A stretch of DNA of 64,000 nucleotides from Capsulimonadaceae bacterium (GTDB lineage: Bacteria; Armatimonadota; Armatimonadia; Armatimonadales; Capsulimonadaceae): assembly GCA_031292625.1 (NCBI GenBank), contig JARLGU010000011.1, forward strand, positions 62,001 to 126,000. Reading direction: 5' to 3'. Shown here piece after piece: positions 4,549 through 39,515 of this stretch (the first letter of the stretch is position 1; each line of letters begins with the position of its first letter). The notes below the pieces were generated by a model. It made no database searches. It worked only from the letters and a program-made list of their open reading frames with translations, and was not told the origin of the DNA. The translations under genes and the position numbers were made by a program.

Positions 4549-4564
4549 ATCGTTTCTCCTATCT

Positions 4565-4606: not shown

Positions 4607-4621
4607 GTAATGAATCGCGAA

Positions 4622-6012: not shown

Positions 6013-8934
6013 TTATGGGCACCCTTCGACAACGTAGCAACCGGGAGCAGTCAGCGTGACGAAAGCGCGGCCGTCCGCCGAGCGGCGCGACGGCACGACC
6101 TTGCCGTCGACTCTCACGGTTCGTCCCGGCACGCCGACAGAGGCGGTCGTTCCATCGGGGATCTGGGCCGAAATGGACAGCCATCCAGCAGCGGCGCTTG
6201 CGTGAACGCGGATCGCGCCCCGCGGCGTCGGCACATCGCCCGCGGCCCATGAAAGCCCGGCCAGGTCGGGAGCAATGACCACTGTTCGATAGGCCGGGCC
6301 GGTCGACCGCACGCCCAGGACCCACTCGGTCAGCCAACTGGTTACGCCCGACGACCATGCATGGCAATAGCTCGCGAAGCCGGGCAATTTCATCGGCGCG
6401 TCTGGCTCGCCCCAGTGGGGATTGCAGGTCTCCCAATAGGTTGTGGCGCCGGCATCCAACATCGCGCCCCAACAATCGCGCGCGACCTGCATGGCTTCGT
6501 CCGTATGACCCAACTTACTGAGGACCGGCTCGATGAAGTACAGATAGTATGGAGTAATAACCCTCGCCTTGGCCGATGGCGACGGTTTCACCCAACCGGC
6601 GCTGCCGAGCTTTAGCACCCGCGCATAAATTGCCGCCTGCTGATCGGATGTCGCGACGCCTGCAAGGATCGCTCGCGTATTCTCCTGGATGCGGTCTCCA
6701 TACGTATTGCTCTGCGTATCGAGGAGTTTGCCTCTCGCCGCCGCCGTCATGTCGTCAACAAGCTTGGCGCATGTCGCCGCGTTTTTCAGATCGCCCATTT
6801 GCCCGAACAGGTACCCCGCCTCGCGGAAAGCCTCGATATAGTAAAGATCCGTAATCGCTCTCGATTCAGGATTATCTTCGTTGGGACCCACTCCGGGACA
6901 CCAATCGCAATACATGAAGTCATTTTTGTCGTTATGAGGCTGCAAGTTTTGAAACAGACCGCCAGCATCCAAATCGCCGCGCATATAATCGACGGTCGAC
7001 AAGAGGGTATCGTGGCATGCGAGCAGAAATGCCGAGTCGCCGAGGTTGCGATAATGGTTTGCCAAGATACGGATCCACGATGCCGAGTAGCCAGGAATAC
7101 CGTTGATATGATGTTTGGCGACGGGAACCTGCGGCCCTAGCCGCCAGATCGAGCGCTCCGTAAGAAAGAGATCGCCGAATGCGCACGCGATCGTCTCCCC
7201 GCTCGCCTCGTAATCGCCTGACCAGAGCCCACGATCCCGCTTAACCCCATCCCAGATGTCGTCCTGCATGCAAAGATGAGCTGTATAGGCGCCGGTATAC
7301 CACATGCGGGTAAGCCGTTCGCCGGAGCAGTCGAAACTGCCGTTGTACGTAACGGGGTAGTAGACGTGGTCGAACGAAATGCCGATCCTCTCCGCGGAAC
7401 CGTTACCCGCGGGCGGGAACGTAAGGAGCGCATACCGGGCTCCCGTGATCGTCGTATAAAGGGGCGAAGCCCCCGCCGCCGTGATCTCCTGACGCGGGGT
7501 TGATCCGATCTTGTTTACGACGTTAGCGGGAGGGACAGCCGGATCCGGGTTCAGCGTAAAGGCAGCATGGACCCACGGCCTGGTCTGCGCCTCTTCGACG
7601 CTTTCCCCCGTGCCGACGGATACGACGGCTTGACCGCTTGAGGTGACGCGCACGCGTCCGTTCAATTCCTTGCCGAAGTCGATGAGGACGGTCGGCGGAT
7701 CGGTCGAGCCAGCGGGCGGAGGCGTAACGGTCATCATCTCGCCACGCGCGAGTCCCTCCGCGCCCGAGATTGCGCCTGCGCCGGGATGCACGGTCAGAAC
7801 GGCGGCAACAGGAAGGTCGAGATGCGCAAGACACTGCGACTTATCGGCAACGAGCCCCGGCCAACCATTGATCTGCCCCGCCGATCGATACCGGTCGGAA
7901 CGCAGTCCGCCTGATGTCGCCGGTCCGGACCAGTCGGCATCATTGAAGCCGGCCGCATTCCAATCAACGCCGGGGTTCGGCGCGGTCGAGACGCGCCACG
8001 AAAGATCCGTCGGAGCCAGGATCTTGCCGTCCGCATCGATCTGAGCGACCGCCCCCGCCGCGCCGGCCTCGTTTCGACAGCGCATCGCAAGCACATTACG
8101 CCCCTTGCGCAGCAGGCGGGTAACGTCCTCGTTCTGTACAATGTTCCACGAAGATCCCGTGGCTGCCGCGACGCCGTTAACGTAAGCCGTGTAACCGTCG
8201 TCGGCAGTTGCAGATAAGGTCGCTTTCGTAGGAAGTGTCGCCAGATCAAAAGTTTTACGAAGGTAGATCGTCTGCTTATCGGTGGTTTCCGAAGCCCATA
8301 TCCAGTTTACGCCTTCGCCGACGCTCAGGGCAAGGCGCGCCTTTGGAGGCGCTGGCCAGCCATCCGGAACCTGAGGTGAAGCCGCTGAGGAGCGTCCAAG
8401 AATTTCCTTTGCGGCCGTCCACGACGAATCACTGAAATCCTCCCCCGCCCAATTGCCTGCAATCGAACCGGAATGCGCCCTCCACGAACCATTCGTCGCG
8501 ATTGGCTCTTGTCCAGGGATTTGCAGCCACGCGATGATGGATGGATCGCTGGCGCCGCTTACCCGGATCGCCAGCACATTTCGCCCGGGATGCAGCAAAG
8601 TCGCGACATCATACTGCCTCGCCTGCCGCGATTGCTCGATACGTCCAGCCGAGTGTCCGTTCACAAAGATCTCGCCTGGTCCGGACGCGGCGACGACCAG
8701 GGTCGTCCACGTTGGCGCATCCGTTAAGGCGAAGGCCCTGCGAAACGCCGCCGAACCGCCACCGTTTTGGTCTCTCGCGTCGATCCATGCGGGCGCGGAT
8801 GAGCCCGCGCCTGGTTGTGGACAGGCCGGGACATAGGTCGGGTCGACCGTGGGAGGCGATGCGAATGCGGCTGAGCAAGCTGCGAGGGAAGCCAGGCAAA
8901 CAAAGAAACGACGCACGAAGTTGGAAGCGAACAT
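6013..8934 (-). CDS. Secreted GH78-like alpha-L-rhamnosidase
   Basis: A 973-residue protein with a signal peptide (about residues 1-25, ending AAFA). The N-terminal half contains two jelly-roll domains with lectin-like strands such as GPGEIFVNGH and DDGYTAYVNGVA. A GH78-type linker domain follows, then an (alpha/alpha)6 barrel (about 540-880) with YTGAYTAHLCMQDDIWDG and KRDRGLWSGDYEA. The late YCHAWSSGVTSWLTEWVLG corresponds to the HGWSAGPTYWL-like signature of the family, and a C-terminal beta domain closes the protein. GH78 enzymes release L-rhamnose from plant glycosides or rhamnogalacturonan by inversion. GGAG precedes the ATG. It heads the GH78-GH18-DUF1559-regulator block. Substrate specificity cannot be read from the sequence. 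Confidence 0.88.
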   Translation of the reverse strand: MFASNFVRRFFVCLASLAACSAAFASPPTVDPTYVPACPQPGAGSSAPAWIDARDQNGGGSAAFRRAFALTDAPTWTTLVVAASGPGEIFVNGHSAGRIEQSRQARQYDVATLLHPGRNVLAIRVSGASDPSIIAWLQIPGQEPIATNGSWRAHSGSIAGNWAGEDFSDSSWTAAKEILGRSSAASPQVPDGWPAPPKARLALSVGEGVNWIWASETTDKQTIYLRKTFDLATLPTKATLSATADDGYTAYVNGVAAATGSSWNIVQNEDVTRLLRKGRNVLAMRCRNEAGAAGAVAQIDADGKILAPTDLSWRVSTAPNPGVDWNAAGFNDADWSGPATSGGLRSDRYRSAGQINGWPGLVADKSQCLAHLDLPVAAVLTVHPGAGAISGAEGLARGEMMTVTPPPAGSTDPPTVLIDFGKELNGRVRVTSSGQAVVSVGTGESVEEAQTRPWVHAAFTLNPDPAVPPANVVNKIGSTPRQEITAAGASPLYTTITGARYALLTFPPAGNGSAERIGISFDHVYYPVTYNGSFDCSGERLTRMWYTGAYTAHLCMQDDIWDGVKRDRGLWSGDYEASGETIACAFGDLFLTERSIWRLGPQVPVAKHHINGIPGYSASWIRILANHYRNLGDSAFLLACHDTLLSTVDYMRGDLDAGGLFQNLQPHNDKNDFMYCDWCPGVGPNEDNPESRAITDLYYIEAFREAGYLFGQMGDLKNAATCAKLVDDMTAAARGKLLDTQSNTYGDRIQENTRAILAGVATSDQQAAIYARVLKLGSAGWVKPSPSAKARVITPYYLYFIEPVLSKLGHTDEAMQVARDCWGAMLDAGATTYWETCNPHWGEPDAPMKLPGFASYCHAWSSGVTSWLTEWVLGVRSTGPAYRTVVIAPDLAGLSWAAGDVPTPRGAIRVHASAAAGWLSISAQIPDGTTASVGVPGRTVRVDGKVVPSRRSADGRAFVTLTAPGCYVVEGCP

Positions 8935-9100
8935 TGGAAATATCTCCGGCGATGGTTGGGGTACGCCGGATCAGTTCTCTACGTTGACATTGGAATCCTG
9001 CGGCGCGCGGCGCCGGGGGCGCCAAAGAGAGACAGCCGGGCGAGGAGGCCCGGATGTTCGCAATGACTCCGTCCGACTATTCTCTCATCGCCCCGCCAGC

Positions 9101-9958
9101 CTATCTCGGATACGCAAAGAGCGGGCGCTCCTGCGCGGCGATTCGATGGACCTCGGCGGTTTCGCCCGTGGAGAGCGGCTCGAACGAGTCCGCGATGTCC
9201 AACGCCATGCGAAAGAGGCGGATATCGCCCGGGGAGATCGCGGCGGTTACCGGCAGCGAAAGCGTGTAACGAAGGGCCCGCGCCGCCTCGGTCGGATCGG
9301 CCAGCGGCTCATACCATGCTTTCGGGTACTCGCTGCGCGCCGGATCGCCATCCTTCCACGGGCCTCGCGCCATTGCCTTGAGCGCAAGACGCGCCGCACC
9401 GCGCTTCTGCGCCTCGCGCATGACCTGGGGGCCAAAATCGGCGATCTCATACGTAACATAGTTGAATGGAAACAGAATGCTGTCGAAGGGGTATCGCGAG
9501 AGAGCGGCAAGCGCCGCTTCGACGCTATGGGCGCTGAAGCCCAGATAGCGCACCTTGCCGGAAGCGCGCGCCTCGACAAACGCCTCCATCGCCCCGCCTG
9601 GTCCAAAGACCTGGTCGACATCCTCGTCCGATGTCATCCCGTGAAGCTGGTACAGGTCGACGTGGCCGGTCTGTAAGAGCCGAAGAGACTCCTCAAGCTG
9701 CTCGCGCGCGCCCGTTGCATCGCGACGCCCGGTTTTGCACGCCAGGAAGACATCGTCGCGATAGGGACGCAGCGCTGGGCCGAGCCGCTCCTGCGCATTG
9801 CCGTACGACGGGGCAACGTCGAAGTAGTTAACTCCCCGGCCGATCGCCTCGCCGACGTACTCGTCCGCTTCCGCGGCGGTTACGTCCCTGACTATAATCC
9901 CGCCGAATCCGAGAACGCTGAGTTCAACGCCCGTCTGTCCGTATTGCCGCTTCTCCAT
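9101..9958 (-). CDS. Aldo/keto reductase
   Basis: 285 residues from the ATG at 9958, which is preceded by AGGGAGTGGCG; a longer frame from 10006 has no such site. The catalytic tetrad of the AKR superfamily is complete: D47 (NYFDVAPSYG), Y52, K75 (ACKTG) and H106 (YQLHGM). The enzyme should reduce aldehydes or ketones, probably sugar-derived, with NADPH. It has no signal peptide. The anti-sigma gene ends 84 bp upstream and the GH78 gene starts 166 bp downstream, all on the same strand. The intergenic stretch on the GH78 side is GC-rich with small inverted repeats (for example CCGGG/CCCGG near 9040) and no further gene. Confidence 0.92.
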   Translation of the reverse strand: MEKRQYGQTGVELSVLGFGGIIVRDVTAAEADEYVGEAIGRGVNYFDVAPSYGNAQERLGPALRPYRDDVFLACKTGRRDATGAREQLEESLRLLQTGHVDLYQLHGMTSDEDVDQVFGPGGAMEAFVEARASGKVRYLGFSAHSVEAALAALSRYPFDSILFPFNYVTYEIADFGPQVMREAQKRGAARLALKAMARGPWKDGDPARSEYPKAWYEPLADPTEAARALRYTLSLPVTAAISPGDIRLFRMALDIADSFEPLSTGETAEVHRIAAQERPLFAYPR

Positions 9959-10042
9959 CGCCACTCCCTTTCGTACGCTTACGCCGCCGGATGAGCCATT
10001 CCGCAACCATTATAGCGCGCGGGATCAAGAAAGAAACGCCCT

Positions 10043-10336
10043 TCACGGCCCCGTGGCCTCGCGATCCAAACGTTCCCATTCGGCTGCAACCGCCGTCCAT
10101 CGACGCGCGGGCAATGTAGGGGCGATATCCGGCGTCGTATCGCCCGGCAGCGCGGCAAGCCTCGCTTTGAGCAAGAACAGGAAAGGAAGCGAGGCCGTGC
10201 ATTGCGGACATGTGCGCACATGGTACTCGGTGTACCAGCGCGACAGACCTATCAGCCTCCCGTCGATCCACGCCGATACTAGAGATTCCATATGGCGGCA
10301 CGGCTTCACGTTTGCAGGATCTACGTTACGTTTCAT
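10043..10336 (-). CDS. Putative zinc-finger anti-sigma factor
   Basis: A 97-residue protein starting 23 bp after the ECF sigma gene. It holds H-x3-C-x2-C in YHVRTCPQCTASL (about residues 39-51), the zinc-binding anti-sigma (ZAS) motif that clamps ECF sigma factors, with an upstream Cys/His pair in KPCRHMESLVSAWIDG. There is no clear transmembrane segment (LPFLFLLKARLAAL is short), so it is probably a soluble, redox- or metal-sensing ZAS protein. Known ZAS proteins release the sigma factor on thiol oxidation; the stimulus here is unknown. The ATG has only a weak ribosome site, consistent with translational coupling to the sigma gene. Confidence 0.8.
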   Translation of the reverse strand: MKRNVDPANVKPCRHMESLVSAWIDGRLIGLSRWYTEYHVRTCPQCTASLPFLFLLKARLAALPGDTTPDIAPTLPARRWTAVAAEWERLDREATGP

Positions 10337-10359
10337 GTGTCTTCATCGATGGAACACGC

Positions 10360-10947
10360 TTAGGACGCGTAGCCCATCCTCCTTCCGTATTCTTGTAGCA
10401 AATCGTGCATCTTCATCCGTCCGCGCGCCAGACGAGAGCGTACCGTGCCAATGGGGATGCCGAGAATCTGCGCCGCCTCGTCGTACGAGTGTCCCTGAAC
10501 GTCCACAATAACCACCGTCTCGCGCACATCGGCCGGCAAACTATTGAGAGCGCGTTCGAGGTCCTCGTCGAGGGTCTCCGCCAACAGTTTCGCCCCCGGC
10601 TGCTCGGGAAGCGCCAGATGACGCTGGCTGATTGGATCGAGATGTCCAGCATCGACATCGCCAATGTCCACGCCAGCGTCCCATCGACGACGATGATTGT
10701 AGTCGTTGATGAAAAGGTTCGTTAGGATTCGCTGCAGGAGGGGCCACGCGGTCTTCCCCTCGATGAACCGTTCCGCGACGTACGCCTGGTACGCCCGGAT
10801 CAGCGTCTCCTGAACAACATCCTCGGCACGACTTACATTTCCCTGGTAAAGGCGCACCGCACATCGCATGAGCGCCGTTTCGTGACGTCTGGCAAGTTCA
10901 GCAAATTCGGCACGGCGTTTCTGAGATTGTGTCGCGGCGTCCAGCAT
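10360..10947 (-). CDS. ECF-type RNA polymerase sigma factor
   Basis: 195 residues with region 2 (ALMRCAVRLYQGNVSRAEDVVQETLIRAYQAY, about 25-56) and region 4 (LPADVRETVVIVDVQGHSYDEAAQILGIPIGTVRSRLARGR, about 135-177), joined by a linker and lacking regions 1 and 3. This is the extracytoplasmic-function group. The zinc-finger anti-sigma gene follows at 23 bp, the standard paired arrangement. Autoregulation from the 149-bp gap upstream (10948-11096) is likely, but I could not recognise a sigma-specific promoter there. Its regulon may include the aldo/keto reductase downstream, by position only. Confidence 0.93.
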   Translation of the reverse strand: MLDAATQSQKRRAEFAELARRHETALMRCAVRLYQGNVSRAEDVVQETLIRAYQAYVAERFIEGKTAWPLLQRILTNLFINDYNHRRRWDAGVDIGDVDAGHLDPISQRHLALPEQPGAKLLAETLDEDLERALNSLPADVRETVVIVDVQGHSYDEAAQILGIPIGTVRSRLARGRMKMHDLLQEYGRRMGYAS

Positions 10948-11096
10948 ATACTCTCACACAAGCGAAGACGCCAAGAAGTTCCCACGGACGTCAGGCGGCG
11001 CTCATTTTATTACGAACTCTCTTCACGAGGTCCAAGGCGACGGTTTGACCCCGTGGACATGGCAGAAGAGCGCATTCGCTTCCATTGCCCGCATGA

Positions 11097-12584
11097 CTAC
11101 GCAACGGTCAGCGTCATCGCAAGCAACGACAACGGCGGCAACTCGCAGCTCACCGCGCCATCCTTGATAAGCGCCCCGTCGAACGCCTTCGCGACAATCA
11201 CGTCGGGCTTCTCGTACGAGTTCGCGGCCTTCGCATCCGGGCCGGTCAGAACTTCCGCCGACTCCACCGCCTCTACGCGCAAGTCTGCCGGTTTTACGAT
11301 AAGCTCCATGGTTGCGACGGGATCGCGATTGGTCACGAATACGTTAAGACGCTGATCGTCGAGGATCGCGCTCGCGTCCGCATACGCGACCGTGCCGTGG
11401 CTCTTGCTCTCGTACGACGGCCCGTCGACCGAGACGCTGAGGGATACGCCGCCGCGACGGGCGGAGAACATGGCGAACGGATGGAAGATACTCTGCACAA
11501 GCATCTCATCGCCGCGCGTCAGAATGGGCGCGATGACGTTGACGATCTGTGCAAGGTTGGCAATCTTGACGACGTCGGCGTGGCGGACGAAGCTGTGAAG
11601 GAAACCGGCGACGACCAGGGCGTCTTCGAGGTTGTAGACTTCCTCTAGAAGATGCGGCGCAAATTGCCCGGCGCCGTCCATCTGCATGCTCTTGTACCAG
11701 ACATTCCATTCGTCGAAGCAAAGATAGGCTCGCGTCTTGCTCTTCCGGCGCGCTTGGACGAACCGGCAAGCCGCATCCATCTCTTCGATCTGGCGGTCGA
11801 TTGAATTCGTGACCGCCAGGTAGTCCGGCGTGTCGTCATCGCGGTTGCCGACATACCGATGGAGGCTGACATAATCCGCCGCGTCGCCGAGGTACTCGAG
11901 GACCTGACGATCCCATTCCATATACGTCCCCATGCTGACGCCGCAAGAGCCGCAAGCGACTAGCTCGATGGACTTATCGGTATCCTTCATCATCTTCGCC
12001 GCCTGCTGAGCCCGGATCGCGTACTCGGCGGCCGGGACATGGCCCAACTGCCATTCGCCGTCCATCTCGTTGCCAAGACACCACAGCTTGACGCCATACG
12101 GGTCCGGACTGCCTCCCGCGACGCGCAGATCTGAGTACCGGGTTCCGGCGGGAGAATTGCAGTATTCAACCCAGTTGCGCGCCTCTTCGGGCGTCCCAGT
12201 CCCCAGGTTCACGGTCAGCATGGGCGTCCAATCCATTTTGCGGCACAGGCGGATGTACTCATCCGTGCCGAACTGGTTTGGCTCGATGCTTTGCCATGCA
12301 AGCTCGCGAACAGACGGCCGCTCCGGCTTAGGACCGGCTCCGTCCCTCCAGTGGTATCCAGATGCGAAGTTGCCGCCCGGATAGCGCATCGCGGTCATGC
12401 GCAAATCGCGAAGCGCCGTAAGAACATCGACGCGGCATCCGTCGTTGTCCGCGTGACGACTATCGGGCTGATAGATGCCCTCATAAACAGCGCGGCCAAT
12501 GTGTTCCAGGAATCCGCCAAAAATGCGCGGATCAACCTCGCCCACTTGCAGACGGGAGTGGAGATGGAGTGTAGTCGTGGTCAC
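11097..12584 (-). CDS. abfA: GH51 alpha-L-arabinofuranosidase
   Basis: 495 residues without a signal peptide, so cytoplasmic, as is usual for GH51. The N-terminus carries the family block GEVDPRIFGGFLEHIG and RYPGGNFASGYHWRDG. The acid/base glutamate is E173 in WCLGNEMDG and the nucleophile is E292 in CFDEWNVWY. A C-terminal beta-sandwich completes it. The enzyme removes terminal L-arabinofuranose from arabinan, arabinoxylan or oligosaccharides taken into the cell. The start is GTG at 12584 with GAGG 9 nt upstream. It is transcribed away from the GH95 fucosidase gene; the intervening 290 bp contain a palindrome at 12637-12651. Confidence 0.95.
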   Translation of the reverse strand: MTTTTLHLHSRLQVGEVDPRIFGGFLEHIGRAVYEGIYQPDSRHADNDGCRVDVLTALRDLRMTAMRYPGGNFASGYHWRDGAGPKPERPSVRELAWQSIEPNQFGTDEYIRLCRKMDWTPMLTVNLGTGTPEEARNWVEYCNSPAGTRYSDLRVAGGSPDPYGVKLWCLGNEMDGEWQLGHVPAAEYAIRAQQAAKMMKDTDKSIELVACGSCGVSMGTYMEWDRQVLEYLGDAADYVSLHRYVGNRDDDTPDYLAVTNSIDRQIEEMDAACRFVQARRKSKTRAYLCFDEWNVWYKSMQMDGAGQFAPHLLEEVYNLEDALVVAGFLHSFVRHADVVKIANLAQIVNVIAPILTRGDEMLVQSIFHPFAMFSARRGGVSLSVSVDGPSYESKSHGTVAYADASAILDDQRLNVFVTNRDPVATMELIVKPADLRVEAVESAEVLTGPDAKAANSYEKPDVIVAKAFDGALIKDGAVSCELPPLSLLAMTLTVA

Positions 12585-28593: not shown

Positions 28594-28971
28594 ATGGACA
28601 AAGTTCAGTTGACAAGCTTTGCGGAAATCATCGAATCAGTTCCCGTTCTCCATGTCGCAGGAGAGATCGATATCTTCACCGCGCCGGACTTCAAGGACGC
28701 AATCGCCGACATCGCCGTTCAGGGTTACACTCATATCGTCATCGACATGCAACATGTCGCCTTCATGGACAGCAGCGGCTTTGGGACGCTCTTGTCGGCA
28801 TCCAAACCGCTAAGGCCGGTTGGCGGATCGCTCAGCATGGTCAACTGCAACGACTCCATCACGCGCATGCTGAATATCACGCGTCTCAGCACGATCATCC
28901 CGATCTACGCGACCGTTGCAGAGGCTATCGAGGCGGCTCATTCGCTCTCCGAGCAGCCAGTTCCCGCGTGA
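28594..28971 (+). CDS. STAS-domain protein (anti-sigma factor antagonist type)
   Basis: 125 residues forming a single STAS domain like SpoIIAA. VLHVAGEIDIFTAPDFKDAI is the first half and VAFMDSSGFGTLLSA the second, with S61 of DSSG at the position phosphorylated by an RsbW/SpoIIAB-type kinase. It would bind such a kinase in a partner-switching pathway. No kinase or PP2C phosphatase is encoded nearby, so the partners are elsewhere. GAGG lies 8 nt before the ATG. Its last 47 bp overlap the convergent YfhO-like gene. Confidence 0.92.
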   Translation: MDKVQLTSFAEIIESVPVLHVAGEIDIFTAPDFKDAIADIAVQGYTHIVIDMQHVAFMDSSGFGTLLSASKPLRPVGGSLSMVNCNDSITRMLNITRLSTIIPIYATVAEAIEAAHSLSEQPVPA

Positions 28972-31228
28972 TAAACGCAACGATCAGGCCAAACGTCACG
29001 CACGAAAGATAGAGCCCAAAGCGAAAAGAGACCGGCTCGAAACGAAGTTCCAGCGCGCCGCGGCGAACGTTCTCGACGGTCCGGAAAACGCCGGGCTTTT
29101 CAATAACCGGAAGCGCCCTCCCCTCCTGTTTAGCAGTCCAGCCGGGATACCACTGATCCGCGATCGTAACCGGGCCGGGCGAGAGTGTTGAAATAACCAA
29201 ACGCGTGGGCGACGGCTGCGAAAACAGCACGGCGTGTCCGTTCGACAACGTAACGCGAGGCAAGGCGCCTCCATCAACATAGACCACACCGTCCGCGCCC
29301 GCATACGCCGGTGGGCCGAGTTCGGGAACCTCGCGCGCCAATACGAAATACCGCAGCGCCGCAAGACGGGTAAACGCGTTGGGTTGCCCCCATGTAAACA
29401 CGATATTCCCGTTCGCCGCCGGGCTTGGATCGCTGCCGCCGTCGATCCGCGCGACAAACGACTTGTACTGCCCCGTCTGCAGCGAATCGTATCCCTGCGC
29501 TTCCAGGAAGCCGTATACGGTTGCGGCGTTTGGCGGAAGAATCGCGGAAGGCGCGGCCGCAATACTCCATCCGCGGTTTTCGACCATCACGCGGTCCTGC
29601 CCGCTATGCTGCACCAGCCACGAAACCAGCGGCGTGACCGGGTAGACATCGCTTTGTTTCACCGCCCGGTTGTACCCCATCCCGGCCCCAAGCAGATCCG
29701 CCGCGACAAGACCAACGAGCACCGCGCCCATCGCGAAACGCCCGATCCGCCCGCAGCCGTAGCCTGCGAAAGCGATCGCGATGACGAGCACGAGCGCCGC
29801 CATGATCCGCAGGTCGTTCACGATGCTCGAGAAGACGGCGCTAAAGCTACCGGCCTCACGCGAAAGCGACAGCGTTGCGAAACCAACGAGCATAAAGCCA
29901 AGTCCGGCTGTCAGCGCTGCCGGTATCCCCACCCTTCCTTTTCGATCGAGCACATATTCGCAGCCGAACGCGGCAAGCACCGACGCCGCGAGCGACCAGA
30001 CGACGAGGATACGCGCCGGGGAGCCGGTCTGGCTAAAGCCAGGGATACAAAAATAGAACAACCCCGCAAGCGGCGTCCCTAACGCGACCAAAAGAGCGCA
30101 CAAGGCGGCGAGCGCAAAGAACCGGACAGTCGAATTACCGCGCCATCCCCGCCACGTCCCTATGATCGTCAGCAACAGCGTCGCAAGCCCCACGTAGCAC
30201 GCCGTTTCCGCGAAGTTCAGGCTCCCCGCATACGAACCCTCGCCATGATAGACGATTGTCCCCGGCGGATCGCTGGGGCGCGGGATTGGCGTTCCACGAT
30301 CGCCTGGATAACCGTAGAAGCCCGGCACATACAGCGTGACAAGCTGCTCCAACGGCATGGCAAGCGCGATATAACCCCGGTAGGCGGCCAGCGACGCGTG
30401 CGCGCCGGAGCGATGCGATACGCGCGACAGCTCCAGCGTGGGCAAGAGTTGCGGCGCGTCGATCCCGATCGCGACCGCCAGCGTGAGCGCCGCCAAAGCG
30501 ACGACAATCACAACTTTAATGCGGGATTGGACAAGCTGTACTACGGCATAGGCGCCGGCGAGAAGCATGCCATAAAGTGCGACCTGCAGGTGACCGGCAA
30601 GCAGCATGACGCCCAGGCATGCTCCCAAGGCAACCGCGCCCCCCGCGACGGGGCGCTGTCCGAGCCGATGCGCAAGCAACAACGCCAGCGGAAACCAGCT
30701 GGACGTATCAAGAAACGTCGGCAGCGCGAGCCAACTCACCTGCCACGTACACAACTGCCAGGCGGCCGCGCCGAGCAGCGATGCGAGTCTCCCGAGGCGA
30801 GCGCCGCGCCGGCAGTAAGCGTAGAGAAACAAGCCTGTCGCGGCCAGATGCACGATCGCGCTTACTCCGAACGCAAGCGCAGGCTTCATGATGGCGAACA
30901 GAATATTGGGGGGATAGAGCACCGCGGACTGGCTGTTAGCCAAAAACGGCGTCCCGCAAAATTCATATGGGTTCCAAAGAGGCAGAAAGCCGGATCGCAA
31001 AGTTTCCGCCGCGAACTTGCGCCACGGATAGAACTGTGCGATGCCATCGAACTGCAGCGGGTTCCAGACAGCCATCGCGCGGGAGTCGAGCGGTCGCCAA
31101 GGCAAAACATCGGTCAGCAGATGCGCGGGAAGCAAAACGCGGCCCGCAAACACGGGCCATAGGAGAATACAGGGCAATGCAACCAGAACCAGGATGGGGC
31201 CTAAACGGTGTAGTGTAAACGTTCGCAT
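28925..31228 (-). CDS. YfhO-like polytopic membrane protein
   Basis: 767 residues with about a dozen hydrophobic segments, beginning GPILVLVALPCILLWPVFAG. The extracytoplasmic loop WNPLQFDGIAQFYPWR and GFLPLWNPYEFCGTPFLANSQSAVLYPPN is characteristic of YfhO-type GT-C proteins. The last third is a soluble beta-rich domain ending with a further membrane helix. YfhO members are thought to glycosylate cell-envelope polymers such as lipoteichoic acid; the substrate here is unknown. The tail overlaps the STAS gene on the other strand by 47 bp. The ATG has no clear ribosome site. Confidence 0.85.
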   Translation of the reverse strand: MRTFTLHRLGPILVLVALPCILLWPVFAGRVLLPAHLLTDVLPWRPLDSRAMAVWNPLQFDGIAQFYPWRKFAAETLRSGFLPLWNPYEFCGTPFLANSQSAVLYPPNILFAIMKPALAFGVSAIVHLAATGLFLYAYCRRGARLGRLASLLGAAAWQLCTWQVSWLALPTFLDTSSWFPLALLLAHRLGQRPVAGGAVALGACLGVMLLAGHLQVALYGMLLAGAYAVVQLVQSRIKVVIVVALAALTLAVAIGIDAPQLLPTLELSRVSHRSGAHASLAAYRGYIALAMPLEQLVTLYVPGFYGYPGDRGTPIPRPSDPPGTIVYHGEGSYAGSLNFAETACYVGLATLLLTIIGTWRGWRGNSTVRFFALAALCALLVALGTPLAGLFYFCIPGFSQTGSPARILVVWSLAASVLAAFGCEYVLDRKGRVGIPAALTAGLGFMLVGFATLSLSREAGSFSAVFSSIVNDLRIMAALVLVIAIAFAGYGCGRIGRFAMGAVLVGLVAADLLGAGMGYNRAVKQSDVYPVTPLVSWLVQHSGQDRVMVENRGWSIAAAPSAILPPNAATVYGFLEAQGYDSLQTGQYKSFVARIDGGSDPSPAANGNIVFTWGQPNAFTRLAALRYFVLAREVPELGPPAYAGADGVVYVDGGALPRVTLSNGHAVLFSQPSPTRLVISTLSPGPVTIADQWYPGWTAKQEGRALPVIEKPGVFRTVENVRRGALELRFEPVSFRFGLYLSCVTFGLIVAFITRELAARRANEPPR

Positions 31229-31517: not shown

Positions 31518-32000
31518 TCATTCATCGGGCGTCAGCGGCGTGCGCGCAATTGCCGCGGCAAGGTCCCGGGGGCGTGAGCTGGATAGAATATACCCGCCAG
31601 CCATGTTGTTCCCTACCGTAAGGCGAAGGGCCGGTCCGGTACGCGCGACCCACGCCCAATAGCCTCCGGACACTATGTGGATGCCGATTCCGGTCGTTCG
31701 GAAAGACGCTTCCGCGAGGCTGGTCGCGTGAATGTCGTCCAAAGAGATGCGCTTACGAAAGACGCCGAACCCGAACACAATCTCCGTATCGGTCACAAGC
31801 ACGGTAAATCGATTGAATATTCCGGCAACCAGCACGAAAAGCGCCGCGCAAAACAGGTGAATGTACGCAACCTGCCGGATGTGCCATTCGATTACGGACT
31901 GGTAAGAAAGATAGGCTTCCAGCAGGATTGGAATCGCGAACAGCGCGATAACCACCGGCTCCGTCCTCTGTTGTTCCCGGTATCGATAAGTCTGCTTCAT
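31518..32000 (-). CDS. Small membrane protein with PH-like domain
   Basis: 160 residues from the ATG at 32000, 4 bp after the stop of the upstream gene; a longer frame from 32057 would overlap that gene. Two membrane helices (about 15-38 and 48-66) are followed by a beta-rich domain, VLVTDTEIVFGFGVFRKRISLDDI, resembling bacterial PH-like domains. The function is unknown. It is the last gene of the lnt-kinase-SNF2-YqhG-like operon. The 289 bp downstream (31229-31517) carry no gene I can support; short inverted repeats such as GGGTT/AACCC occur there. Confidence 0.75.
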   Translation of the reverse strand: MKQTYRYREQQRTEPVVIALFAIPILLEAYLSYQSVIEWHIRQVAYIHLFCAALFVLVAGIFNRFTVLVTDTEIVFGFGVFRKRISLDDIHATSLAEASFRTTGIGIHIVSGGYWAWVARTGPALRLTVGNNMAGGYILSSSRPRDLAAAIARTPLTPDE

Positions 32001-32004
32001 AATC

Positions 32005-32739
32005 TCAACGCCATAACAAGAGGGCGGATTCGAGCTGGATCTCCACGGCCGGAGCATATCGCGCGCCGAGCATCGTCATCCTGGCGACCAGGTCGTTTCC
32101 GTCCAGTACGTGCGCGGCATCTTCCACTTCCGCCCTGTACGCATCATCGGCCTCCGACGCAAAACGGCGCGCGCGCACCGATACGTCGCGCTCCCAAGCA
32201 TCTACAAGCGTTTGCAAAGCGTCGTACGGATTCAGCGTTTCCGGTCCGCGGCGTGCAATGGCCGGCGGCCCCTCGATAAGGTTAGGCGCCGCAAAAGGGT
32301 TGCCCGCTACGCGCACGAGCGATCCCGTGGCAAGGCTGACGCCCAGCCATTTGCGTTCATCATAAGTGCTTACGCCGCGATAACAAGCGTGGAAACGGGC
32401 CAGAAGATAGGGATAAAAAAGCGGACCAACTTCCTGTCCGGTAATATCCGCGCCATCGATCGTCGCGACCGCCCATACGCCGCGCCCCTCCGCATACTGC
32501 TGCATGCGCCGGACGAGCGGCGCGTTGGCGGAAACGCATTCGATCCGCGCGCCTTCCTCCCAGCGCTCGGCGTCGAACGTCAAAAGCAACTCTCCCGACG
32601 GGCGGCCGAGATACCACGCTGCGAGCCCCGTGCTGCCATCAGGCAATTCGTAGCGGTAGACGCCTGGCGCAAGTTCGGACCCTTGCGCGCCCCAAGCCTC
32701 AAGCGTATCGGTCACGAAATCACGTAATAGTTGGTTCAT
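32005..32739 (-). CDS. YqhG-like protein, partner of the SNF2 helicase
   Basis: 244 residues, soluble. The opening QLLRDFVTDTLEAWGAQGSE, the middle KWLGVSLATGSLVRV and the end LGARYAPAVEIQLESALLL recall, from memory, Bacillus YqhG (PF11079), whose gene adjoins the SNF2 helicase gene yqhH. Here too the gene follows an SNF2 helicase, overlapping it by 4 bp (ATGA). Function is unknown in both cases; a conserved physical partnership with the helicase is the natural inference. No catalytic motif is visible. The alternative is an unrelated hypothetical protein. Confidence 0.72.
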   Translation of the reverse strand: MNQLLRDFVTDTLEAWGAQGSELAPGVYRYELPDGSTGLAAWYLGRPSGELLLTFDAERWEEGARIECVSANAPLVRRMQQYAEGRGVWAVATIDGADITGQEVGPLFYPYLLARFHACYRGVSTYDERKWLGVSLATGSLVRVAGNPFAAPNLIEGPPAIARRGPETLNPYDALQTLVDAWERDVSVRARRFASEADDAYRAEVEDAAHVLDGNDLVARMTMLGARYAPAVEIQLESALLLWR

Positions 32740-35162
32740 GCGCCAAGTCCAAATAGATCGTCGAGGAATTCCGCGTCACGACAGCGGCTCGCATACGATT
32801 TGCGCGCCGCGACAATCGCCTGGCGATACGTATCAAGCGCCAGAACGGCCCCATTGCCGGTATGGAAACCCTGACGAACGCCGGCTGATTGAAACGCTTG
32901 CCGGATCCGCGCTTCGACATCGCGCAGCGCCGGGTCCGGTAAGCAATCCAGCAACGAATCCGCTTCGCCAAGCGCGAGTTCAAAAAGCCCCAACGCATGC
33001 TCATAGAGGGCCAAGACCGCTTCGTCTCGCGAGCCCGCCCGCACAACGTGAACGACATCCACGTGTCCGCCGCGCTGTCCCAAGCGATAGACGCGACCGA
33101 CCCGCTGTTCCCATGTGCTCGGGTTCCAGGGAATATCGCATTGCACGACGACATCCGCCGATTGCCAGTTCATGCCCTCCGCGTCCGCATCGCCAGAGAC
33201 GAGAAGCGAACCCGGCTTATCGCGAAAGAGCAGGGAAATATTCCGGCGATCGGTACGACTGCCGTCGAATTCAAGGACGCACCGTCCAGGGAAAGCGCTG
33301 CGCAACCCCGAGGCGACGCCGCGGCGAATTCCCACGTCCGCAGCAAAAAGAACCGCGCTGCGATTTGCGTCGACGGATCTTAGGTACGCGATCAACGGGT
33401 CTAGCAGACCAGGCACGATACCGGATTGGCGGCTCGCCGCGTATACCAGCGTTACATAGGTCCGCTTGGGAAAAGTGAGTCCCGGCAGATCGCGGCGGCG
33501 ATGGCGCACCATGATGCCGTTGAGGATAGCCCGCAGGGCCCGGCGCTCCGCGTCCCCATGGTCGCTCGCAGCTTCAAAGCGCGCGGCAAACTCGGCATCC
33601 GTTCCTAGGAAGCCAGGGCGAATCAACGAGACCAGCGTGTAGAGCTCGCGCAACCGTCTGCGCACGGGCGTCGCCGTAAGCAGAAGAATTCTGCGACGAG
33701 TGAGCGATGCGATAGTGCGGCCAAGAACGTTGGGCTGCCCGTCCGTGCCCGTTAACATGTGCGCTTCGTCCGCGACGACAAGGTCATAGCTCTGCGCCGC
33801 AAGCGCCTCGCGATGCCCCGGCAGGCGCAACGTCGCCGCCGACACAATCAACAGCGGGTAACCGGCATCGGCAATCCCATCGTACACGCGAAAATGAGGC
33901 TCATATCCGGACGTGCGTATACGGCTGCGAACCTCTTCCTCCCATGTCAATACGCCCTGCGGCTGAACGACGATTAAGACCTTCTCGGCCATCTGACGGC
34001 TCCGAAGCTCCTGTATAATCATCAAAGCCTCAATCGTCTTGCCCAGGCCGACCTCGTCCGCCAGGATCGCTCCGCCCGCCATCGTGGACGTCGTCAACAC
34101 CCGAAGCGCTGTCTCGACCTGATGCGAGTACGGTGCGATGTCCAAGCTGCCAAGGGCGGTCAGTCCATCGCCATGAACGAGGCTCCGCAGTTGCGACGCC
34201 CGGTCCGCAAGCCGCGCCCACAGCAAACAGCCCGGATCGTCGCGCCGTATCGCGTACGCGACCGGGCTTTCGGACAAGGCAATGCGGCGGAAAGTCAGAG
34301 GCGGCAACGCAAGCACGTCGACGGGAAACCGGCGAGCCGGCTGCAAAAGCGACAGCACCTTGAGCGCATCGGCGGCCAGGAGCGCCGACGAAAACCTCTC
34401 GTCGGGATCGGGCGACATGGCGCGGCGCAGGAAGTGCGCCACATCATCCGGGAGCCCCTTCACAAGCGCAAAAATCCTCGTTAAAGCCGCCTCTGCGCCC
34501 TCGGACGGAGGCGTTTCGCCCGTAAGCAAATAGTACAACAAAGCGCCGACGCCCCACACATCGCTTTGGATCGTCGGTCCATTTGCCATTTCTGGCGCGA
34601 CATAGGCAAACCGCGAGAGATACGATGCCGACCACGTTCCGGCGCGCGGCACAAGAAAAGCGGTAGCGCCGCCGCCGACAAACCAGAGCGTGTCGTCATC
34701 CTCCACGATGAAGTTAGGCGCTTGCAAATCGCCAACCGCGAGCGGCGCCGGCTCGTCGCCGTGGAACCGGTGAGCCATCAGCGCGGCCGCGCGCGCCGCA
34801 CGGCAGGCACGATCGTAACGCATCGGTCCGTCCTGCTCGACCACCTTTCGCAACGATCGTCCCGGCACGCTGTCACGCACCAGATAGAGAATCCCCTCTT
34901 CATCCTCGAACGTATCGAGCAACCGGGGAACATACGGCAACCCGCGGGAAAGCGCTTCGCGTTCGGCATCGAAATGCTGCTTGGCGCCGCGTCCAGGGAC
35001 GTTAAGCCCGAACTTCTTGATGATGACTTCACTATCGAGATGCAAATCGAGCGCACGCCAAACCTGCGCGACCGATTGACCGGAATCGAGGCGTTCAATA
35101 TAGCGATATCGTTCATCAAGCTGCGACTTCGGGATTTCCGTCATATTCTGCAGGACTTTCAC
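32736..35162 (-). CDS. Pseudokinase-SNF2 helicase fusion
   Basis: 808 residues. Residues 15-275 are a Ser/Thr kinase fold: EVIIKK (beta-3 Lys, 49/50), an alpha-C Glu near 67-69, GDLQAPN (D145, N150), YVAPE (187-191) and DVWGVGALLYYLLTG. The DFG aspartate is missing (FVGGG at 161-165) and the DLKPxN lysine is Gln, so catalysis is doubtful. Residues 345-700 are an SNF2/RapA-type ATPase: DEVGLGKT (369-376), DEAH (465-468), TATP (496-499), DADAEGMNW and EQRVGRVYRLGQ (685-696). It should translocate on double-stranded DNA or act on RNA polymerase, with the pseudokinase as a regulatory or docking part. The start is uncertain: GTG at 35162 or ATG at 35144, both without a clear ribosome site. Confidence 0.9.
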   Translation of the reverse strand: MKVLQNMTEIPKSQLDERYRYIERLDSGQSVAQVWRALDLHLDSEVIIKKFGLNVPGRGAKQHFDAEREALSRGLPYVPRLLDTFEDEEGILYLVRDSVPGRSLRKVVEQDGPMRYDRACRAARAAALMAHRFHGDEPAPLAVGDLQAPNFIVEDDDTLWFVGGGATAFLVPRAGTWSASYLSRFAYVAPEMANGPTIQSDVWGVGALLYYLLTGETPPSEGAEAALTRIFALVKGLPDDVAHFLRRAMSPDPDERFSSALLAADALKVLSLLQPARRFPVDVLALPPLTFRRIALSESPVAYAIRRDDPGCLLWARLADRASQLRSLVHGDGLTALGSLDIAPYSHQVETALRVLTTSTMAGGAILADEVGLGKTIEALMIIQELRSRQMAEKVLIVVQPQGVLTWEEEVRSRIRTSGYEPHFRVYDGIADAGYPLLIVSAATLRLPGHREALAAQSYDLVVADEAHMLTGTDGQPNVLGRTIASLTRRRILLLTATPVRRRLRELYTLVSLIRPGFLGTDAEFAARFEAASDHGDAERRALRAILNGIMVRHRRRDLPGLTFPKRTYVTLVYAASRQSGIVPGLLDPLIAYLRSVDANRSAVLFAADVGIRRGVASGLRSAFPGRCVLEFDGSRTDRRNISLLFRDKPGSLLVSGDADAEGMNWQSADVVVQCDIPWNPSTWEQRVGRVYRLGQRGGHVDVVHVVRAGSRDEAVLALYEHALGLFELALGEADSLLDCLPDPALRDVEARIRQAFQSAGVRQGFHTGNGAVLALDTYRQAIVAARKSYASRCRDAEFLDDLFGLGA

Positions 35163-35222
35163 AAGGACAGAATTGTCCGCGCCACCATCAATTTGCCGGC
35201 GGGAGGTTCACTAACGTTCCGA

Positions 35223-37175
35223 TCAGATGAGCGCCCACGCGGTGACGGATCCGTCCGCCGCCGCAACCACGAGGTACTCGCCGGTTATCAGCGGCGGCGC
35301 AATCGCACCGCTTGGTTCGAGAACGCATTCCCACGTAATTTCCGCCTGCTCCGCGACGTTCACGACCATCACGCGACCGTCAGGGCCGTATTCGGTGAGC
35401 GCCACTGAGCGACCGCCGCGCAATCTCACGGCTCCCGTCAGCGGCAATGTAAAGCTGACATCGTGCCAGCGCAATGCCCCGGTAACCGCATCCAGCGCAA
35501 TCAATCCTGAGTTCCGGGTAGGCACGACCAACGTCTCTCCGGCCGCCAACGCGGCAGGTCCGATCGTCTCGGCGGCCAAAGATATACGCCACAGTATTTC
35601 GCCGGTCTGGACGTTCAAACCTGCATAAGATGCATCACCGCGTCCGCCGCCCACGAAAAGCCGGTCGCCAACGACGAGCGGAACGGCGGCAAGCGCCCCG
35701 TGTCCGATGCGGCACGACCAGACGACACGCCCTGTGTCGGGACGTAAAGCAGATATGCCGCCGCTTCTATCGGTCATGACAACCATCTCCGGACGCGTGT
35801 CCGCGGCAGGCACAAGGGTTAAGGTCATCGGCGGAGTCGGCAAATCGCGACGCCATTCAGAGAGGGAACCGCTGATTGGAATGCCCATAATCTGGTCGGT
35901 TCCTGACGTAGCAATCACGAGCTGACCGCAGCTTGTGAGAATCGGCATCGAGATGGTTCCGAGCGGCTGGTGCGACCGCCAAACCGCCGCCCCCGTCACG
36001 GCATCGAGCACCGCGATCCCTTGACGCCCCGAGCTCATCGGAAACGAGTACGCAAAATACCGTTCATGGCCGAGGATAAGCAGCGATGAACGAACCAGAC
36101 ATCCGGTCGTCCGGTCTCCCGGCTCCCGATAGATCCACAACGGACGGCCTGTCCCCGAATCGATGCCGCAGATCATCCCGCCGTTATCCGCGTAATAGAC
36201 TGCGGCCCCTGAACCCACTGGCGCGGATGTCACTGCGGCGCCCATGTTCAGGTTCCACACAGGCGCGGATGCGACCGGCAGCTTCCATCCGCCTGGACTA
36301 ACCGCCGGCGCCCACGAGTCAAGCGCTTCGCTCAGGTCGCGCGCCGATTGGTAGCGGCGATCGGGGTCGGGTTGGCAACAGCGATCGAGGATACGCGCTA
36401 GCGCAGGCGAGAGCGAGCTCCGCACTTCGCGCGCATGAGGAAGCGGCTCGAATCCAGCAGCGAGTCTCGGATTGTATCCCGTCGCCAACTCGAATAATAC
36501 AACGCCAAGGGAATACAGGTCCGTCCGAGCGTCAAGGGCTGCCTCCGGATCGTACTGCTCCGGCGCGGCATAGCCTGGTGTTCCAAGAGGTTCAGCGCCA
36601 TCGTTGCCTTGTCCGGGCTGCAAGCAACGCGCGAGACCAAAATCCAGGAGAATAAGCCGCCCGTCCGTCGCACGCTTAATGACGTTGTGCGGCTTGAGAT
36701 CGCCGTATACGATGGGCGGCTCGCTCCGATGCAGCCGGCTGAGAGTATCGCTAAGCATCACGCCGTAGCTGACGACGAGTTCTTCGGGGACGGGGGAGAT
36801 TGCGCATTCGCCAAGCGAACGCGCTGCATCGACAGGATCACGGTGCAGATCAAAGAGGTTGGATCCTGAGACAAAATCCATGACTAGAAAGGCGTATCCC
36901 GCCTCCCGCAAGAAGTCGCGTATACCGACGACGCCGGGATGGTTGAGACGCGCGAGGAGCTTGGCTTCACGCTCGAACCGCGCCAATCGATCGGCGATAT
37001 CGGGTGCATCGGGCAATGGCAGCGCCTTAACCGCGCAGTCCGTGCCGAGCGCATCGTCGCTCGCCCGGTACACGCACGCCATTCCTCCGACAGCGACAAC
37101 CTCAACGATCCGGTAGCGTCCCTGATCGCCGATCGTCATTCCAGGAGACAAAAGGGCTGATCTATTCGTGCTCAC
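35223..37175 (-). CDS. Ser/Thr protein kinase with C-terminal PQQ-type propeller
   Basis: 650 residues. The kinase domain (about 20-285) has all key residues: K50 (CAVKAL), E70, D159 in YGDLKPHN, N164, D178 of DFG, and APE (204-206). The HRD arginine is Gly, as in non-RD kinases. Residues 300-650 are PQQ-like repeats (ALDAVTGALRWHD, GLNVQTGEILWR, GIDSGTGRPLWIYRE) that form a propeller. No transmembrane segment separates the two parts, so the propeller is probably cytoplasmic, unlike PknD-type receptors. The GTG at 37175 lies within the end of lnt (14-bp overlap) with GGAGG 11 nt upstream. It precedes the pseudokinase-SNF2 gene by 60 bp. Confidence 0.92.
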   Translation of the reverse strand: MSTNRSALLSPGMTIGDQGRYRIVEVVAVGGMACVYRASDDALGTDCAVKALPLPDAPDIADRLARFEREAKLLARLNHPGVVGIRDFLREAGYAFLVMDFVSGSNLFDLHRDPVDAARSLGECAISPVPEELVVSYGVMLSDTLSRLHRSEPPIVYGDLKPHNVIKRATDGRLILLDFGLARCLQPGQGNDGAEPLGTPGYAAPEQYDPEAALDARTDLYSLGVVLFELATGYNPRLAAGFEPLPHAREVRSSLSPALARILDRCCQPDPDRRYQSARDLSEALDSWAPAVSPGGWKLPVASAPVWNLNMGAAVTSAPVGSGAAVYYADNGGMICGIDSGTGRPLWIYREPGDRTTGCLVRSSLLILGHERYFAYSFPMSSGRQGIAVLDAVTGAAVWRSHQPLGTISMPILTSCGQLVIATSGTDQIMGIPISGSLSEWRRDLPTPPMTLTLVPAADTRPEMVVMTDRSGGISALRPDTGRVVWSCRIGHGALAAVPLVVGDRLFVGGGRGDASYAGLNVQTGEILWRISLAAETIGPAALAAGETLVVPTRNSGLIALDAVTGALRWHDVSFTLPLTGAVRLRGGRSVALTEYGPDGRVMVVNVAEQAEITWECVLEPSGAIAPPLITGEYLVVAAADGSVTAWALI

Positions 37176-38763
37176 CCGCGGGGCATCCTCCGATCCGGCG
37201 CGCGGTCGTAAAGAGTGTCGCTAAAAAGACGATACAACAGAGTACGACAAACCAGTTCCCGAAGCGCACATACGGCGTAATCCCCGATTCAATGGGAACG
37301 TCCGCGACGAGAACGCCTCTTTTATACCAGGCCAGCTCGCAAATCCGTCGCCCGCGCGAATCGAAAATCGCGGAGATGCCCGATACCGCTGCACGCACGA
37401 GCGAACGGTGCGTCTCGGCGGCCCGCAGAGCCGACATTGCCATATGCTGGCGGGCGGCCGATGTGCGCCCATACCATTCGTCGTCGGTGACCACGCTGAG
37501 GACCGTCGCGCCGCGCAAAACCTGCCGTCTGGCGTACTGCGTGTAGCTCGATTCGAAGCAAATCATCGGCCCCGCGACCACCCGGCGGCCGCTCACCCAA
37601 ATGTCCGTCGGCAAGGGATGCTGCCCGGGCGAACCTGGCGCTTCGTCCACGATGCTGACCTGCAGGTCCTGAAGAAACGAGAACAGCCTGCGATACGGAA
37701 GATACTCGCCAAACGGGACTAGGCGCGTCTTCGCGTAGACGCCCGTCGCGCCGCGAAAGGGGGCGATTAAAAATACAACGTTCTGATTCTGTCCATGCGC
37801 CGGCTCGATATACCGGCCTCCCGCTACAAGATCGAGATGGTTGGCGCTTGCCCAGTTTTCCACGCGCAGCCTGAGTTCCCGGTCAAACTGAATAAAACCC
37901 GGGATTGCGGTCTCGGGCAGTGCCGCGAGACGCGCGCCGCGAGACGCCGCCTGCGCGACGAGCTGATCGAACGCGGCAAGAGTCCCATAAAAGTAAGCGG
38001 GATCGGCAGGACGCCGGTTGTCGACCCAGTAGACGTCCTGATCGATATTTTCCTGGATGGCCGCGACGCGCAATCGTGGCGTTCCCGGATCGATCCGGGC
38101 CTCGAATGCCCCCCACAGCGCGACGCTCCCTACGATGACGGCTGCGATTGCCAGCAGGCGGCGATCCCTCGACGCGATTGCGACATTGCACAAGACGATC
38201 AGATATCCGATTCCAAACACGCCTGCGATCGAAGCAAACTGCAGAATGGGAATGTTGTGCCACTGGGTATATCCGAAGTCGCCCCACCCCATGCCGAACG
38301 TCCCAAGCTCCGCCAGCCATTCGCAAAATGCCCACGCCGCGGGAACCGCTATAAGACGCGCAACCGGCGACGCGCGCCAGACCAGGTTTGCGAGAACCGC
38401 GAAAAGCGCCGTGAACGGCGTATGGATCAGGGCAGCAAGGACGCATGCGACTACGCCCATTTCCGCGCCCAACTTCGAGCCCGCAAAAACCCCCATCCAA
38501 TACACGACTCCGAGCGCTTGGAAAAGGCCGAAGAGCAGACCACAGCCAATCGCCGTCCGCATACGGGCGTGGGGAAAGGTAAGGAGAAACGGCACGAGAG
38601 CCAGCCAGGCGAGGAAACCAAAATCGGCCGCCGGAAAGCATAGAGCATAGAGTACGCTCGACGCAACGGCCGCAAAAGGAGCTGCAAAGGAGCGCGGAGG
38701 AAACGGACTGGCGCTTGCATCGTCTGGCGGACGTTCGGCATGTCTTGCGAAAGCGATATTCAA
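37162..38763 (-). CDS. lnt: Apolipoprotein N-acyltransferase
   Basis: 533 residues. The N-terminal half has about seven membrane helices (FLAWLALVPFLLTF, WAFCEWLAELGTFGMGWGDFGYTQW). The nitrilase-like domain holds the Glu-Lys-Cys triad: Glu in ALPETAIPGF, Lys in AKTRLVPFGEYLPYR and Cys in ICFESSY. Lnt adds the third acyl chain to lipoproteins in the inner membrane of diderms, which supports an outer membrane here. The annotated first codon is TTG at 38763; no better start is obvious. Only 20 bp separate it from the divergent lipoprotein gene. It heads the operon with the kinase genes, an unusual association. Confidence 0.93.
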   Translation of the reverse strand: MNIAFARHAERPPDDASASPFPPRSFAAPFAAVASSVLYALCFPAADFGFLAWLALVPFLLTFPHARMRTAIGCGLLFGLFQALGVVYWMGVFAGSKLGAEMGVVACVLAALIHTPFTALFAVLANLVWRASPVARLIAVPAAWAFCEWLAELGTFGMGWGDFGYTQWHNIPILQFASIAGVFGIGYLIVLCNVAIASRDRRLLAIAAVIVGSVALWGAFEARIDPGTPRLRVAAIQENIDQDVYWVDNRRPADPAYFYGTLAAFDQLVAQAASRGARLAALPETAIPGFIQFDRELRLRVENWASANHLDLVAGGRYIEPAHGQNQNVVFLIAPFRGATGVYAKTRLVPFGEYLPYRRLFSFLQDLQVSIVDEAPGSPGQHPLPTDIWVSGRRVVAGPMICFESSYTQYARRQVLRGATVLSVVTDDEWYGRTSAARQHMAMSALRAAETHRSLVRAAVSGISAIFDSRGRRICELAWYKRGVLVADVPIESGITPYVRFGNWFVVLCCIVFLATLFTTARRIGGCPAGEHE

Positions 38764-38783: not shown

Positions 38784-39515
38784 ATGAACAGAAGAGACTT
38801 TATCGTTGGCGGCGCCGCGACACTCGCGATGGCGGGATGCGCGAAGTATCCCAGTTCGTCATCGACCTCGTCGGCCAGCGCTCTTCTGGTCAGCATGACC
38901 GTCGCCGGCGTGATCGATCCCAACTCATACTATTTCGTGGTCTTCAATACGTCCAATGACAGTGCAGGCGCATCTGGACCTACTCCAGTCGTCGCCCCGC
39001 CTTGGGGAAACGGCTTCGTATCCGGAGCCGCGACGCATTTCGTGGAATATCATGGCAATCTCGCGGCGGATGGCTATGAGATCTATCGGTTTGTCGCTGG
39101 AACGTCGCTGCAACAGTATACCGCAGTCGGAGTGCCGAGCCAGGTCACGACGATCAGTTCGACATCGAACACCATCCAGTTCCGCATTCCGCTTTCCGTG
39201 CTGGCGACATCAACGATCTTGGCCGGGGCAATCACGAACATCCAGATCAACTTCTTGACAACCGACCGCATCCCGGTGAACCCTCAGGACACAAGTCCCA
39301 AGCTTTTCGATGCTCTTGGCAACTCCAATTACGGGTCGGGACAGCTTAACGACTACATTACGATCTCGACGACGACCGGCGCCACTTACAACAATAGCTA
39401 CGAGAACATTGAGCCTGCCGGCGATGTGCAGCAGACCAACGGCAGCGGCGGCTACAGCCAGTACAACGCGCCCAACCTCGACATTACGGGGTGGAGCGTC
39501 CAGGTCCAGACATAG
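38784..39515 (+). CDS. Twin-arginine-type lipoprotein of unknown function
   Basis: 243 residues. The leader MNRRDFIVGGAATLAMAGC has a twin-arginine-like pair and a lipobox (MAGC, Cys at 19). After a Ser-rich spacer (PSSSSTSSAS) comes a Ser/Thr/Asn-rich beta-type domain with VAPPWGNGFVSG and THFVEYHG; I do not recognise the family. Divergent lnt, 20 bp away, would mature such a lipoprotein. It precedes the LptF/G and LptD genes by 84 bp and may be carried on the same transcript. Function unknown. Confidence 0.82.
   Translation: MNRRDFIVGGAATLAMAGCAKYPSSSSTSSASALLVSMTVAGVIDPNSYYFVVFNTSNDSAGASGPTPVVAPPWGNGFVSGAATHFVEYHGNLAADGYEIYRFVAGTSLQQYTAVGVPSQVTTISSTSNTIQFRIPLSVLATSTILAGAITNIQINFLTTDRIPVNPQDTSPKLFDALGNSNYGSGQLNDYITISTTTGATYNNSYENIEPAGDVQQTNGSGGYSQYNAPNLDITGWSVQVQT

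Follow-up and report, generated by a model that had tools for sequence, protein, structure and literature searches.

Organization of the locus

A 64,000-nt stretch of the genome of a Capsulimonadaceae bacterium (Armatimonadota; contig JARLGU010000011.1), hereafter the window, carries five closely spaced genes, all on the minus strand, between positions 31518 and 38763. Three of them form the system described here: a Ser/Thr kinase with a PQQ propeller (gene 1, 35223–37175), a predicted pseudokinase fused to an SNF2 helicase (gene 2, 32736–35162) and a 244-aa protein related to YqhG (gene 3, 32005–32739). Upstream lies lnt (apolipoprotein N-acyltransferase, 37162–38763; identified by NCBIfam and by Pfam, with LNT_N and CN_hydrolase domains in the latter), and downstream lies a gene for a membrane protein of ~160 aa with two hydrophobic segments (31518–32000, ATG at 32000). 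lnt and gene 1 overlap by 14 bp, 60 bp separate genes 1 and 2, genes 2 and 3 overlap by 4 bp, and the small membrane gene follows after a further 4 bp, in agreement with an earlier reading of this DNA made from the letters alone (the sequence-only reading). Neither Pfam nor NCBIfam has a family for the 244-aa protein or the ~160-aa membrane protein.

Gene 1 joins a Ser/Thr kinase domain (aa 22–276) to a C-terminal PQQ-type β-propeller (~aa 300–650; Pfam Pkinase and PQQ_2). Its catalytic motifs are intact (AVK, YGDLKPHN, DFG and APE), and no transmembrane segment is predicted, i.e. the protein should be soluble. Gene 2 opens with a second kinase domain (~aa 15–270, 34353–35120; Pfam Pkinase, E = 2e-10) that retains IIK and APE; its catalytic loop reads VGDLQAPN and GGG replaces DFG, and we predict the domain to be a pseudokinase. 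Pfam and the state of the motifs agree with the sequence-only picture of a complete kinase–propeller beside a helicase that bears a degraded kinase domain.

The remainder of gene 2 holds an SNF2 core (~aa 320–745, 32928–34205; Pfam SNF2-rel_dom and Helicase_C) whose motifs I–VI are intact (DEVGLGKT, DEAH, TATP and QRxGRxxRxGQ) and whose PDB relatives include RapA. In our phylum sample of 291 species' genomes, its nearest helicases (about a dozen genomes with E = 1e-31 or better) are free of kinase domains and form one subgroup with Bacillus YqhH. Bacillota YqhH proteins are also among its best matches, and by its sequence the gene 2 motor is of the YqhH type. A kinase hidden Markov model run over the window and 93 helicase loci found matches in the window only. 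About 80 alignment columns before lobe 2, present in 11 aligned phylum relatives, are absent from gene 2; they are probably a helical insert, the Snf2-specific 2B region (the domain name is one that we infer). An AlphaFold2 model of the fusion protein was set aside: the helicase was modelled, and the kinase part, from an alignment without the kinase family, had a predicted local distance difference test score (pLDDT) below 50.

A second copy in Chloroflexota

With the fusion protein as query, 301 Chloroflexota genomes yielded the same trio, in the same order and on one strand, in genome G380 (contig 40, locus L198): a kinase with a PQQ propeller (P0007, 8071–10335), a 919-aa kinase–zinc ribbon–SNF2 fusion (P0006, 5358–8117) and a relative of YqhG that bears a long array of zinc fingers (3018–5342). 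The two fusions share 32% identity and align over most of their length, the two propeller kinases share 26% identity over their full length (E = 2e-43), and the partners align through their N-terminal domains (E = 2e-6). Because the locus was found through its helicase and not through its neighbours, selection does not account for the matching kinase upstream. The core trio is adjacent again in another phylum, so the arrangement is not chance.

In L198 there is no lnt beside the trio and no counterpart of the ~160-aa membrane protein; both genes lie outside the recurring core, and the true unit is the three genes. Of the signalling unit first envisaged, the kinase–propeller, the kinase–helicase fusion and the YqhG-like partner stand, and the membrane gene drops out as a core member.

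The fused kinase of L198 is catalytically complete (AIK, YADLKPQN, DFG and APEQ), and the propeller kinase is predicted from its motifs to be active in both copies. The window copy is the more reduced of the two, because it has a pseudokinase in the fusion, has lost the ~80 helicase columns, and has a partner without the coiled-coil extension and zinc ribbons found in that protein's relatives. Two characters, a 26-residue spacing between DEAH and ATP and an ATP-x-R motif, are common to both fused helicases and occur in no other of 73 relatives, 57 of the 73 having a spacing of 23. A tree that holds the two fused helicases together was 16.45 log units better than a free quick search (approximately unbiased test, p-AU 0.92). 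Because both are long branches, the tree and the shared characters support a common origin without proving it.

No further fusion was found besides L198 in 291 genomes of the window's phylum, 301 of Chloroflexota and 296 of Actinomycetota, where 3–4 candidates per genome were scored if the genome was kinase-rich and misses are possible. None appeared either among 191 + 131 relatives of G380 (the 131 searched by the helicase alone, which avoids the candidate limit), in plasmids or in viral contigs. In other Chloroflexota, kinases paired at a distance of 7 kb proved unrelated. The trio looks like a real signalling module, with control of transcription or of genome maintenance as its probable role.

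The YqhG-like partner is predicted to resemble the C-terminal part of RapA

Directly downstream of many YqhH-type helicases of the phylum lies a YqhG-like gene, in the layout of the 244-aa protein. Among the helicase loci examined, the pairing occurs also in Bacillota, Actinomycetota, Chloroflexota, Planctomycetota, Pseudomonadota, Acidobacteriota and one haloarchaeon, and two Bacillota partners that were scanned match Pfam YqhG (PF11079) at E = 1e-118 to 1e-127. A profile of 58 partners, built without the 244-aa protein, gives that protein 48.9 bits, compared with 4.4 for the highest-scoring of 500 shuffles, and nothing else scores in a six-frame translation of the window. The likeness to YqhG seen in the sequence-only reading is borne out, though PF11079 itself is silent on the 244-aa protein and has no match over cut-off in the 291 phylum genomes. 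By sequence, the protein is a distant member of the YqhG superfamily and not a PF11079 member. Because neither direct BLAST searches of those genomes nor peptide patterns in genome contigs found relatives of it, its family could be reached by the helicase route alone. Partners outside Bacillota vary in size: some bear very long zinc-finger-like CxxC arrays (L064:5160–7475, L198:3018–5342), and those of Actinomycetota are 650–730 aa long.

Two comparisons connect this partner to RapA. First, the five best PDB matches to an AlphaFold2 model of the 244-aa protein (43 relatives in the alignment, pLDDT 86) are all Escherichia coli RapA, residues 711–965, and span the whole model. The best Foldseek E value is 1.4e-7, and the Z scores are 11.0, 10.3, 10.3, 10.1 and 7.9, the next unrelated chain scoring 3.9. 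Second, in profile–profile comparison the YqhG family, again without the 244-aa protein, scores 43.8 against RapA C-termini, with 30 block shuffles at or below 20.4 and a reversed profile at 13.4. In addition, the C-terminus of a 1144-aa helicase (L149:3756–7190) shows a weak likeness to YqhG, and this protein may be a single-chain form of the YqhH/YqhG pair; an Hsp70-like gene follows it. On the predicted model and these profiles, YqhH and YqhG are best seen as a RapA-like machine split into two chains; YqhH is in fact named HepA/RapA in Bacillus subtilis (PMC7385302).

N-terminal additions vary among the helicases of loci L025, L027, L064 and L198 (zinc ribbon, coiled coil, kinase) and lie at the position of the regulatory N-terminal domain of RapA, which suggests that YqhH-type helicases have a swappable control slot there.

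The surrounding operon

A genome of the same family (G003, locus L091) has the neighbours in window order: lptD-like, lptF/G, a lipoprotein gene, divergent lnt and a 768-aa membrane protein. There, lnt (8221–9804) overlaps the membrane gene (9797–12103) by 8 bp, and the window's four intervening genes are absent. In the window, the downstream neighbour in this operon encodes a 767-aa membrane protein (28925–31228, minus strand), YfhO-like by eye and without a Pfam match. The simpler reading is that the four-gene cassette was gained in the window lineage, as an insertion into an older, conserved operon, and because of this the adjacency of lnt is uninformative on function. The link to the envelope that the sequence-only reading had drawn from lnt does not survive: in the family member lnt runs directly into the gene found after the cassette in the window, and in Chloroflexota no lnt lies beside the trio.

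Among 61 sampled phylum genomes, none yielded an ortholog of the propeller kinase, and the cassette ends show no convincing insertion scars or repeats. The GC content of the cassette is ordinary (0.615 versus 0.601), its four frames are open across 5.6 kb, and GC by codon position is that of protein-coding DNA. Divergent from lnt lies a putative lipoprotein gene (38784–39515) that is conserved in family members L091 and L093 and has no Pfam family. A 407-aa gene adjoins lptF/G in two relatives (L091:6118–7341, L092:9680–10903); in the window, lptF/G and the lipoprotein gene lie without it between them.

A proposed kinase-controlled motor and its alternatives

In RapA, the N-terminal domain autoinhibits the ATPase and is wedged open by RNA polymerase, and the Spacer domain contacts the β′ zinc-binding domain through D744 (PMC8501970), a residue that falls within the 711–965 part resembled by YqhG. 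We give an even chance of being right to what we consider the best explanation of the trio, a phosphorylation-controlled, two-chain RapA-like translocase. The YqhH-type SNF2 motor and its YqhG-type partner would together make up the RapA-like machine, whose most likely target would be RNA polymerase or a comparable DNA-bound complex. The kinase fold on the motor, a complete kinase in Chloroflexota and a pseudokinase in the window, would occupy the position of the autoinhibitory N-terminal domain of RapA. The propeller kinase would bind this fused domain, phosphorylate it or do both, by phosphorylation or by kinase–pseudokinase pairing, and so release or hold the motor, switching its ATPase on or off; the propeller would be the probable sensing or docking part. 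We put forward a fuller version more tentatively, at somewhat below an even chance: a Hanks-type kinase would have taken the place of the autoinhibitory N-terminal domain in a RapA-like machine of two chains, and its SNF2 motor, associated with transcription, would be switched by a sensor kinase. Among the three roles that the sequence-only reading had left open, transcription recycling gains most, since both the predicted fold of the partner and its profile match the C-terminal part of RapA; envelope stress finds no support.

Several observations weigh against this explanation. The alignment to RapA has a root-mean-square deviation of ~11 Å, and therefore the match is topological, with subdomains shifted. 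Neither gene 2 nor gene 3 matches Pfam RapA_C or the RapA Tudor domains PF18337 and PF18339, the latter two of which are present in E. coli RapA. The motor core of gene 2 scores higher with the defence helicases DpdE (139.7 bits) and DrmD (122.3 bits) than with RapA (99.8 bits). Kinase trees do not settle the orthology of either kinase pair. Only two examples of the trio were found, and the distribution is patchy. Finally, the window copy, with no ~80-column insert and a short partner, may be altered or decaying.

A second, rather unlikely reading is that of an accessory module against phages or mobile elements, whose kinase would detect the invader and then arm the SNF2 helicase. The core helicase does resemble DpdE, DrmD and BrxH, type-2 BREX pairs the PglW kinase with BrxHI (PMC12839542), and the four genes look inserted in a conserved operon and are without homologs in the phylum. 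YqhH/YqhG-type pairs also occur on plasmids and, in haloarchaea, beside DUF499 and DUF1156 genes. Against this, neither copy has a methyltransferase, a nuclease or another effector, the flanks of both copies look housekeeping, and the pair occurs broadly across Bacillota genera; Pfam, NCBIfam and PADLOC scans of the cassette genes also found no PglZ/BrxC-type component. On the haloarchaeal plasmids of loci L254 and L256, a hypothetical protein takes the YqhG position after a YqhH-type helicase, to which it is tightly coupled, next to DUF499 and DUF1156 genes, possibly a defence context. The window genome also carries a separate DISARM DrmD-type SNF2 helicase (G000:C25 ~111970–114860, L267:971–3859; PADLOC DrmD, 636 bits), and the open reading frame after it is methyltransferase-like by eye.

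Experimental work on YqhH itself suggests a third reading, a DNA-damage or replication-conflict translocase placed under a stress kinase and independent of RNA polymerase recycling. In Bacillus thuringiensis, YqhH has ATPase and helicase activity, unwinding DNA, and its loss leaves cells sensitive to ultraviolet light (PMC10054049). The predicted fold of the partner, however, speaks for RapA, which works with RNA polymerase, and nothing in either neighbourhood is repair-related; we hold this reading improbable. Least probable of the three is that the window holds a Chloroflexota-type system in decay, as the lost catalytic loop and DFG of the fused kinase, the ~80 missing helicase columns and the partner without coiled-coil extension and zinc ribbon could suggest. 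Against it, the four frames stay open for 5.6 kb and have the codon-position GC of coding DNA, all helicase motifs are intact, and so is the propeller kinase.

YqhG, whose family is annotated as of unknown function, would gain a structural identity as the detached C-terminal part of RapA, suggesting how the widespread YqhH/YqhG pair is built. The trio would also connect signalling with transcription or with the maintenance of the genome, as a bacterial Ser/Thr kinase wired directly into an SNF2 motor.

Comparison with known systems

The sequence-only reading knew of no described system with this composition, and the literature that we searched, largely outside subscription journals, held none: neither the kinase–helicase–partner combination, nor a kinase in the N-terminal lid position, nor the link between YqhG and RapA. 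The parts are nevertheless of known kinds, namely the YqhH/YqhG pair, RapA and an AfsK-like kinase.

Among defence systems, type-2 BREX likewise has a Ser/Thr kinase and an SNF2 helicase in one system, but the cassette lacks PglX, PglZ, BrxC and BrxD, and its kinase is fused to the helicase and not to a nuclease. DISARM DrmD and DpdE give the best NCBIfam and PADLOC scores for the helicase core of gene 2. These scores are far below the family cut-offs (139.7 of 500 bits for DpdE and 122.3 of 610 for DrmD), and the cassette holds no other DISARM or Dpd component.

Gene 1 shares with the AfsK-type Ser/Thr kinases with PQQ repeats (PMC1262709) a soluble kinase and a C-terminal PQQ propeller. By contrast with AfsK, it is linked to a helicase and has no afsR-like gene, and it falls below the NCBIfam AfsK equivalog cut-off (55 versus 1300 bits).

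The Bacillus YqhH–YqhG pair, an SNF2 helicase (HepA) with a PF11079 protein, agrees with the window system in the subgroup of its helicase, the superfamily of its partner, the order of the genes and their tight coupling. It has no kinase domain and no adjacent propeller kinase, and Bacillota partners match PF11079 whereas the window partner does not. Compared with E. coli RapA, the window system is split into two chains, has a kinase fold in place of the Tudor-like N-terminal domain and gives no Pfam RapA_C match, but it parallels RapA in its SNF2 core, in an auxiliary N-terminal domain before the core and in a domain predicted to have the fold of RapA 711–965.

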